From positions 1 to 64,000 of the forward strand of contig PKWL01000156.1 of the NCBI GenBank assembly GCA_003133225.1: DNA of 64,000 nt, in the 5' to 3' direction. The notes under the pieces were generated by a model. The model did not search any database. It was not told where the DNA came from and saw only the letters and a list, made by a program, of their open reading frames with translations. Origin of the DNA: Janthinobacterium sp. (GTDB taxonomy: Bacteria; Pseudomonadota; Gammaproteobacteria; Burkholderiales; Burkholderiaceae_D). Below, piece after piece: positions 5,822-7,979 of the stretch (position 1 is the first letter of the stretch; the number at the start of each line of letters is the position of its first letter). A program made the position numbers and the translations under genes.

Positions 5822-7159
5822 ATGATGGCCCAACAGAACGATGCAAGCTCCCCGCAAGCTCCCCACCACAGCGGGGGGGCGCCCTTGAACGTGCAAAAAT
5901 TCACGGCCGCGACGTCGCGCGAGGCGCTGCGCAAGGTGCGTGAGGCGCTCGGCCCGGATGCTGTCATCTTGTCGAACCGTCCCACCGATGGCATGGTCGA
6001 GATCCTGGCGCTGGCCAATGACGACATGGCCTCGCTGGCGCCGTTTGCGGGCGCGTCCGACATGACGCCGGCGCGCTCGCACCATGGCGCCCCGTTGGCG
6101 CCGCGCCAGCCGGCTGCCGGCCTCGACATGGCGCACATGTCGCAGCTGATGGCGGCCGCCGTAGCGCAGGCCAAGGACAGCGCAGCCGTCGAAATGAGCG
6201 GCATGATGAGCGAGATTCGCGCCATGCGCGGCATGATGGAAACCCAGCTAGCTGAAATTTCCTGGGGCTCGGTTCAGCAGCGCGAGCCGCAAAAAGCGGC
6301 CGTTTTGCGGCAGATGCTGGCCGCCGGTTTCAGCGCCAGCCTGGCCCGTTATCTGATCGAAAAGCTGCCGCCCGGACGCGACGCCCAAGCCAGCCTGGCC
6401 TGGATCAAGAGCGTCTTGCAGCGCAACTTGAACACGGTCGCCAATGAAGACGCGATGCTCGAGCAGGGCGGGGTGTTCGCGCTGGTCGGCCCGACCGGCG
6501 TTGGCAAGACGACCAGCACGGCGAAACTGGCGGCGCGCTGCGTGATGCGCCACGGCGCCGAGCAGCTGGCCCTGATCACCACCGACGCCTACCGCATCGG
6601 CGCCCACGAACAGTTGCGCATCTACGGCAAGATCTTGGGCGTGATGGTCCATTCGGTGAAGGACGAGGCCGATCTGCGCATCGCCTTGCGCGAACTGAAA
6701 AACAAACATACGGTGCTGATCGATACGGTTGGCGTTAGCCAGCGCGACCAGATGGTGACCGAGCAGGTGGCCATGTTGCAAGGCAGCGGCGCCGACGTCA
6801 AGCGCTTGCTGTGCCTGAACGCGACCTCGACCCAGGAAACCTTGAACGAAGTGGTGCAAGCCTATCAGGGCAGCGGCCTCGCCGGCTGCATCATGACCAA
6901 GCTCGATGAAGCAGCCTCGATCGGCAATGTGCTCGACGTCGTGATCCGCCAAAAGCTCAAGCTGCATTACATCTCGAACGGCCAGCGCGTGCCGGAAGAC
7001 TTGCACCTGGCCGACAGCGCTTACCTGATCGACCGCGCCTTCAAACTCAAACGCGACGCCGCGGCCGCGCAGTATCTGGATGCGGAATTGCCGCTGCTGA
7101 TGGCGGGCGCCAGCCACGCCTGCAACGACCGTACCTTGCGCGAGGTTCATCTTGGCTAA
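5822..7159 (+). CDS. flhF: Flagellar SRP-type GTPase FlhF
   Basis: SRP-family GTPase that, with FlhG, sets the position and number of polar flagella in many bacteria. The N-terminal B domain (NVQKFTAATSREALRKVREALGPDAVILSNR) is followed by helical N and GTPase G domains. Visible G motifs are GPTGVGKTTSTAKLA (P-loop, near residue 223), TTDAYRIGAHEQL, DTVGVSQRD (usually DTAG) and TKLDEA. Two adjacent ATG codons exist; AGGAG lies 3 bases before the first and 6 before the second (5825), so the true start may be the second. The gene overlaps flhG by 8 bases. Confidence 0.96.
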   Translation: MMAQQNDASSPQAPHHSGGAPLNVQKFTAATSREALRKVREALGPDAVILSNRPTDGMVEILALANDDMASLAPFAGASDMTPARSHHGAPLAPRQPAAGLDMAHMSQLMAAAVAQAKDSAAVEMSGMMSEIRAMRGMMETQLAEISWGSVQQREPQKAAVLRQMLAAGFSASLARYLIEKLPPGRDAQASLAWIKSVLQRNLNTVANEDAMLEQGGVFALVGPTGVGKTTSTAKLAARCVMRHGAEQLALITTDAYRIGAHEQLRIYGKILGVMVHSVKDEADLRIALRELKNKHTVLIDTVGVSQRDQMVTEQVAMLQGSGADVKRLLCLNATSTQETLNEVVQAYQGSGLAGCIMTKLDEAASIGNVLDVVIRQKLKLHYISNGQRVPEDLHLADSAYLIDRAFKLKRDAAAAQYLDAELPLLMAGASHACNDRTLREVHLG

Positions 7160-7979
7160 TTTCGATTTCGACCAGGCCGAGGGCCTGCGCCGGATGTTAG
7201 CTGGCCCCAAGCCGCGCATCGTCACCTTCTTGTCGGCCACACCGCAAGACGACAAAGGCGCCATGCTGGTCAATCTGGGCGCCTCGCTGGCGCGTGCCGG
7301 CAACAACTTGTTGCTAGTGGATGCCGGCGCCAGCGCGCACGGCGTCGCCTCGCGCCTGGGCGTGGCGGGCGGCGCCAGCCTGCTCGACGTCGCGCGCCAG
7401 GAATGCGGCCTCAATCAGGTGATCCACCAGGTGCCACAGGGTTTCGGGGTGGTCTCGATGCTGCCCAATAGCGCGCGCGCGGCCGACCCTGACGAGGCGC
7501 GCCGCCTGGCCAAGGCGTTTGACGTGCTAGTCAAGCAGACCGGCATCGTGATCGTCGACGGCGACTTCGACGGCGCGACTTTTCCGGTGCCGATCATGGC
7601 GTCCTCCGAGATCGTGGTGCAAGTGTCCAGCAGCGCCACCTCGATCAAGGCCGCTTACTCCATGATCAAGCGCTTGAATCAGGAATTGGGGCGGCGCCCG
7701 TTCGGCATTCTGGTGACCGGGGCTTCCGAATTGGAAGCAAAGGTGGTATACGATAATATGGCGCAGGCGGCGAGCCGCTACTTGGCGGTCAACTTGACTT
7801 CCATGGGTTCGGTGCCGGCCGATGAATACCTGCACCGCGCGGCGCGACTGGGACGCGCCGTGGTCGATGCCTTTCCGCTGGCCGGGGCTTCGGTCGCGTT
7901 CCGCCAGCTGGCGGGGCGCTTCGCCCTCTCGGCGGTACCGTCTTTTCGCACTGGGAGCAACAGCCATTTTAGCGCCTAA
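7152..7979 (+). CDS. flhG: FlhG/FleN-type MinD-like protein with degenerate P-loop
   Basis: Homologue of the MinD/ParA ATPase FlhG (FleN, YlxH), which stimulates FlhF and limits flagellar number. The chosen TTG start preserves an N-terminal DQAEGLRRML segment, like the FlhF-activating motif of FlhG proteins; the next ATG would remove most of it. The MinD fold is recognisable (MLVNLGASLARAGNNLLLVDAG; IVIVDGDFDG). Yet where the deviant Walker A KGGVGKT is expected the sequence reads SATPQDDKGAM, with the GKT core absent. Nucleotide binding may therefore be altered or lost. Co-transcribed with flhF (8-bp overlap) and followed by fliA. Confidence 0.88.
   Translation: MANFDFDQAEGLRRMLAGPKPRIVTFLSATPQDDKGAMLVNLGASLARAGNNLLLVDAGASAHGVASRLGVAGGASLLDVARQECGLNQVIHQVPQGFGVVSMLPNSARAADPDEARRLAKAFDVLVKQTGIVIVDGDFDGATFPVPIMASSEIVVQVSSSATSIKAAYSMIKRLNQELGRRPFGILVTGASELEAKVVYDNMAQAASRYLAVNLTSMGSVPADEYLHRAARLGRAVVDAFPLAGASVAFRQLAGRFALSAVPSFRTGSNSHFSA

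Follow-up and report, generated by a model that had tools for sequence, protein, structure and literature searches.

A putative pseudo-ATPase form of FlhG, partner of the GTPase FlhF, in a clade of Burkholderiales

Introduction

What remains of FlhG when the loop that binds ATP has been replaced? In current models, ATP-dependent localisation or dimerisation is central to this protein. Membrane binding of FlhG requires the ATP dimer together with a C-terminal helix (PMC12826062), Walker A mutants lose the ATP-dependent functions (PMC7226244, PMC12327844), and binding to FlrA/FleQ is known from monotrichous species only (PMC12826062). The question is raised by an flhG gene of Janthinobacterium sp., located in a stretch of 64,000 nucleotides (the window), for which the first-pass annotation proposed an FlhG that keeps only its FlhF-activating function and has no ATP switch.

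Results

The flhG gene, its neighbours and the predicted fold

The flhG gene lies on the forward strand (7152..7979) and encodes 275 residues from a TTG start, as assigned by homology to FleN/FlhG and by predicted fold; its coding part, 7152-7976, aligns with Pseudomonas FleN without gaps. It is placed directly downstream of flhF (5822..7159, forward strand) and overlaps the 3' end of that gene by 8 bp. The translated FlhF partner GTPase carries GPTGVGKT, DTVG and TKLD, all in place, in agreement with the initial reading of its motifs as intact. The genes ahead of flhF are taken, by sequence recognition, to be flhB and flhA, and those following flhG are presumably fliA and a mot-type gene pair. 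The TTG of flhG lies inside the last flhF codons (7152-7159), and among 80 named relatives 71 have TTG as the aligned start and 73 share the 8-bp overlap. The recurrence of the start and the overlap in relatives suggests that translational coupling of FlhF and FlhG is conserved.

In a family search the window FlhG falls below the Pfam cut-offs. Its phmmer match to the FleN structures is at 1.7e-21, and the family profile reaches 4.7e-47 for FleN and 7.9e-27 for Geobacillus FlhG. The AF2 model, built from a shallow alignment of 50 sequences that are 75-90% identical, predicts with moderate confidence a MinD-like fold nearest to FleN/FlhG (mean pLDDT 72; below 50 for residues 225-246), and FleN and FlhG structures are its best PDB matches (Foldseek E 1.9e-15). 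Synteny, the activator helix, phylogeny and fold all place the protein in the FlhG lineage, in which it is filed here as a putative pseudo-ATPase variant.

Replacement of the nucleotide site

Residues 28-38 (7233..7265, forward strand), where the deviant Walker A motif would be expected, read SATPQDDKGAM, as the first-pass annotation had stated. No gap interrupts the loop when the protein is aligned with FleN (5j1j) and Geobacillus FlhG (4rz2/4rz3): GGKGGVGKTNV of FleN is overlain by SATPQDDKGAM, with V-T-G-G-K-G-G-V-G-K-T-N-V pairing with F-L-S-A-T-P-Q-D-D-K-G-A-M, and TPQDDKG stands at the place of the canonical KGGxGK[ST]. The signature Lys is replaced by T30, the loop glycines by Ala, Pro, Gln and Asp, with Asp before K35, and the following Thr by G36, leaving two acidic residues in the former phosphate loop. 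The claim that the GKT core is gone holds for the Gly and the Thr but not for the Lys, which is kept at the aligned place as K35 (7254-7256). Across the clade (n=75) the motif is found in no member, D or E occupies position 34 in 70 and K or R position 35 in 71, and in about two-thirds the Thr/Ser following K35 has given way to Gly, Asn or another residue.

The losses extend to both switches. In switch I (7320..7328, forward strand), D57-A58-G59 replaces D-A-D and the second, catalytic Asp is lost; Asp at position 59 is present in 29 of 29 other Gammaproteobacteria versus 3 of 75 clade members. In the Walker B/switch II region (7557..7574, forward strand), D136-GDFDG replaces DTAAG, the first Asp being kept (Asp in 69 of 75 of the clade) and the rest lost. 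The segments at the canonical DxD and DTAAG thus read VDAGA and VDGDFDG.

The C-terminal tail (residues 256-275, 7917..7976, forward strand) reads FALSAVPSFRTGSNSHFSA, without the canonical membrane-targeting amphipathic helix, whereas the 29 other Gammaproteobacteria have a membrane tail of the GHLEFFVERLI type. In most Burkholderiales of the GK[ST] type, the membrane tail is modified, for example EAFMQRLIQSSR. Pattern matching with one regular expression overlooked several genuine helix tails and wrongly picked up L010, so the tails were inspected by eye as well; no membrane-targeting helix was found in those of the clade. Sites that are invariant in the 29 outgroup sequences yet variable in the clade fall mainly within the nucleotide site and the tail.

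At residue 167 (7650-7652), all 29 other Gammaproteobacteria have the Asp of SI-T-D-AY, where the clade mostly has Ala, Asn or Thr. The position is aligned here to MinD D152 and Vibrio FlhG D171, and in the Vibrio protein a D-to-A change at D171 activates the ATPase (PMC7226244). Q157 (7620-7622) is clade-specific (65/75), with Val in 29 of 29 other Gammaproteobacteria, and may lie close to the former nucleotide site.

Selection on the loop and alternative readings of the pocket

The dN/dS of flhG is 0.12-0.19 in ten printed pairwise comparisons, and among close relatives the loop codons have a pN/pS of 0.06 versus 0.23 for flhG as a whole. Judged from these codon ratios, flhG is under purifying selection, which preserves the loop as it now stands.

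The loop might still bind nucleotide in an unorthodox manner through K35 and D136, making FlhG a weak or altered ATPase or an ATP sensor. Both residues remain in the window FlhG, where weak nucleotide binding is possible, and their frequency in the clade (K/R35 in 71/75, D136 in 69/75) agrees with such a role. It is nevertheless an unlikely reading: acidic residues stand where glycines would bind phosphate, about two-thirds of the clade have lost the Thr/Ser that follows K35, and the signature Lys, the switch I Asp and DTAAG are all lost. The pocket could instead have been reused, with the [DE]K pair and the clade-specific Q157 and E138 forming a site for a new ligand or partner. This would account for the recurrence of D/E34 (70/75), Q157 (65/75, Val in 29/29 of the outgroup) and E138 (56/75), and for a loop that, among close relatives, changes at a slower pace than the remainder of flhG, but a salt bridge closing the emptied pocket would yield the same pattern, and the window FlhG has D, not E, at 138. 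We know of no ligand or partner for the former ATP pocket, and consider its reuse quite improbable. Sequencing error, frameshift or decay, to which Pfam matches below cut-off and one in-frame TGA in a few relatives could point, is hardly credible and is rejected for the window gene, because most clade members share the [DE][DE]K replacement under strong purifying selection (dN/dS 0.12-0.19), the same loop recurs in 80 named loci with its core clade-wide, the frame is open, and KGGVGKT is not encoded at 7233-7265 in either of the remaining frames.

Parts kept for FlhF activation and C-ring binding

The FlhF-activating helix is preserved as DQAEGLR (residues 7-13, 7170..7190, forward strand), as first read, and its Q8 is found in 168 of 168 aligned FlhG. 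FlhF is stimulated through the Gln of DQAxxLR (PMC12826062), and stimulation of the FlhF GTPase is probably retained, a prediction made from the conserved Q8 only. K173 (7668..7670, forward strand) occupies the position of Geobacillus FlhG K177, a residue needed to bind the C-ring protein FliY (PMC12327844), and Lys is present there in 167 of 168 aligned FlhG. Position 210, a Tyr corresponding to Geobacillus F215, is aromatic in 74 of 75 clade members. The clade has likewise kept flhF and flhG together as a pair, as well as the MinD/FlhG fold. Among the three known C-ring-binding residues of Geobacillus, K177 alone is strictly kept, F215 being Tyr and R207 Asn in the window protein. C-ring binding of FlhG is nucleotide-independent (PMC7226244, PMC12327844), and the conserved K173 suggests that this property is kept too. 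Loss of the ATP switch together with a kept FlhF-activating helix has good support in the sequence, but the "only" of the first-pass annotation is too strong, K173 being conserved.

Distribution in Burkholderiales and comparison with known systems

With one genome sampled per species, 98 of the 116 genomes from the window's own family have an FlhG match. In the 65 window-type sequences read there, the motif is present in none, K/R35 in all 65 and D/E34 in 62. Alignment with relatives gives the [DE][DE][KR] loop in 80 of 80 named Oxalobacteraceae-group loci, from Duganella, Rugamonas, Massilia, Pseudoduganella, Janthinobacterium and others. In a tree of 168 FlhG, made by a quick method and containing several long branches, the clade forms one group of 75 rows with support 100, consisting of Oxalobacteraceae and members of a few close Burkholderiales families. 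KGGxGK[ST] is found in 0 of 139 Burkholderiales FlhG versus 29 of 29 from other Gammaproteobacteria, in all of which the full Walker A, switch I DxD and switch II AAG are intact. GK[ST] remains in 21 of the 139. The loop glycine is kept in 60 of 64 Burkholderiales FlhG outside the clade, at the place where 70 of 75 clade members have D or E.

The gammaproteobacterial FleN/FlhG (P. aeruginosa FleN, PDB 5j1j, 7ejw, 8p53) is, like the window protein, an flhF-downstream orthologue with DQAxGLR and the same predicted fold (TM 0.72-0.79), and both have K173, N41, D57, D136, P222 and D224. It differs in possessing KGGVGKT, DxD, DTAAG and a C-terminal EFFVERLI helix, all absent from the window protein, and most of its genomes have FleQ, which the window's genome lacks. 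The other Burkholderiales FlhG (L159, L166 and L178 with GK[ST]; L184-L191 with G-x-T) share with the window protein DQAxGLR next to FlhF, a mostly lost signature Lys, a lost switch I DxD and, where surveyed, no FleQ, whereas they retain the loop glycine (60/64), GK[ST] in part and, in many, a modified tail xFMQRLIQSSR. They represent an intermediate stage. Bacillus/Geobacillus FlhG (YlxH; PDB 4rz2, 4rz3) has the fold, DQAxxLR and the C-ring-binding Lys (K177) in common with the window protein but, unlike it, has an intact Walker A, forms an ATP dimer and carries a membrane helix; it binds FliY and, when in the ATP form, GpsB (PMC12327844). MinD shares the SIMIBI fold but is without the DQAxxLR helix.

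A second FlhG type occurs in the same family (L066-L070, in genomes G054, G076, G061, G028 and G096), with GSSPxVGATS and similar loops from which the lysine is lost; it lies in a different clade and is called unrelated to the window type. Horizontal exchange of flagellar clusters in the family is possible, because G076 has this type and other members of its genus the window type. Genome G091 carries two window-type flhG on different contigs (L019 and L056, 75% and 48% identical to the window's), which points to either an additional flagellar cluster or an assembly of mixed origin. A single in-frame TGA lies within the matched flhG stretch of L024, L065, L154, L155 and L170, possibly a recent loss, a shifted end or an assembly error.

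FleQ and FlhC in the genome

In the window's genome, a profile search detects FlhC, and the FleQ N-terminal domain PF06490 has no match (assembly 98% complete). The ATP-dependent transcriptional partner of FleN is therefore absent, and since the antiactivator role of FleN needs a FleQ-type partner, it cannot operate here in its known form. The genome contains one FlhF and one FlhG; a second, canonical FlhG was not found in it, and its normal, intact MinD is a separate gene on another contig. Of 25 non-Burkholderiales genomes with FlhG that were surveyed, 20 have a strong FleQ match (E<1e-8) and none a strong FlhC match (E<1e-70); of 55 Burkholderiales, none has the former and 29 have the latter. 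The loss first proposed for this genome is broader than described: switch I, switch II and the membrane helix are lost as well, in keeping with the missing FleQ. It is, however, shared by the entire clade and not peculiar to this genome.

FlhC is present in 16 of 18 surveyed Burkholderiales without the loop motif versus 11 of 33 in which part of it remains (Fisher p=1.5e-4, in a sample weighted to one family and with related sequences that are not independent). FlhC as the driver of loop erosion is a lead only, because of this one-family sample, the kinship of the sequences and the FlhC carriers that keep GKT (L183, L198, L199 and L209).

Discussion

The clade FlhG has lost the parts that drive the MinD-like cycle of ATP, dimer and membrane, whereas strong constraint still holds on its DQAxGLR helix and its C-ring-binding patch. 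Because the C-ring and FlhF parts are kept and the membrane and FleQ-type parts lost, an apo-like, ATP-independent FlhG is proposed. We consider it fairly probable, from sequence comparison, that the FlhG of this Burkholderiales clade is a pseudo-ATPase, with no productive ATP binding and no ATP dimer, which retains FlhF activation and C-ring binding. Such a protein would stay soluble, apo-like and probably monomeric, and would bind the C-ring without nucleotide. Through Q8 it would stimulate GTP hydrolysis by FlhF, leading to release of FlhF from the growing basal body, a trigger without ATP timing. Flagellar number would then be set by the amounts of FlhF and FlhG, a coupled pair, and by FlhDC-driven expression, rather than by an ATP-gated dimer of FlhG with FleQ repression as a second task. 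Because Vibrio FlhG Walker A mutants are hyperflagellated (PMC7226244), an ATP-blind FlhG would need some compensation. The wider proposal, that the clade runs the FlhF-FlhG switch with a non-ATPase FlhG, an ATP-independent FlhF activator and C-ring chaperone that arose stepwise in Burkholderiales without FleQ, is one that we weigh evenly for and against.

Searches of an open-access collection of papers, which mostly leaves out subscription journals, turned up no previous description of a degenerate betaproteobacterial FlhG. In the review by Bange et al., the action of FlhG where the master regulator is not FlrA/FleQ is an open question (PMC12826062), and the Burkholderiales clade makes the role of FlhG in that setting testable. 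In conclusion, if the proposal is true, natural evolution separated the FlhF activation of FlhG from its ATP-gated choice of partners, and FlhF activation is separable from the cycle of ATP, dimer and membrane across a large flagellated lineage. The clade would offer natural mutants with which to learn what function of FlhG determines the number of flagella.
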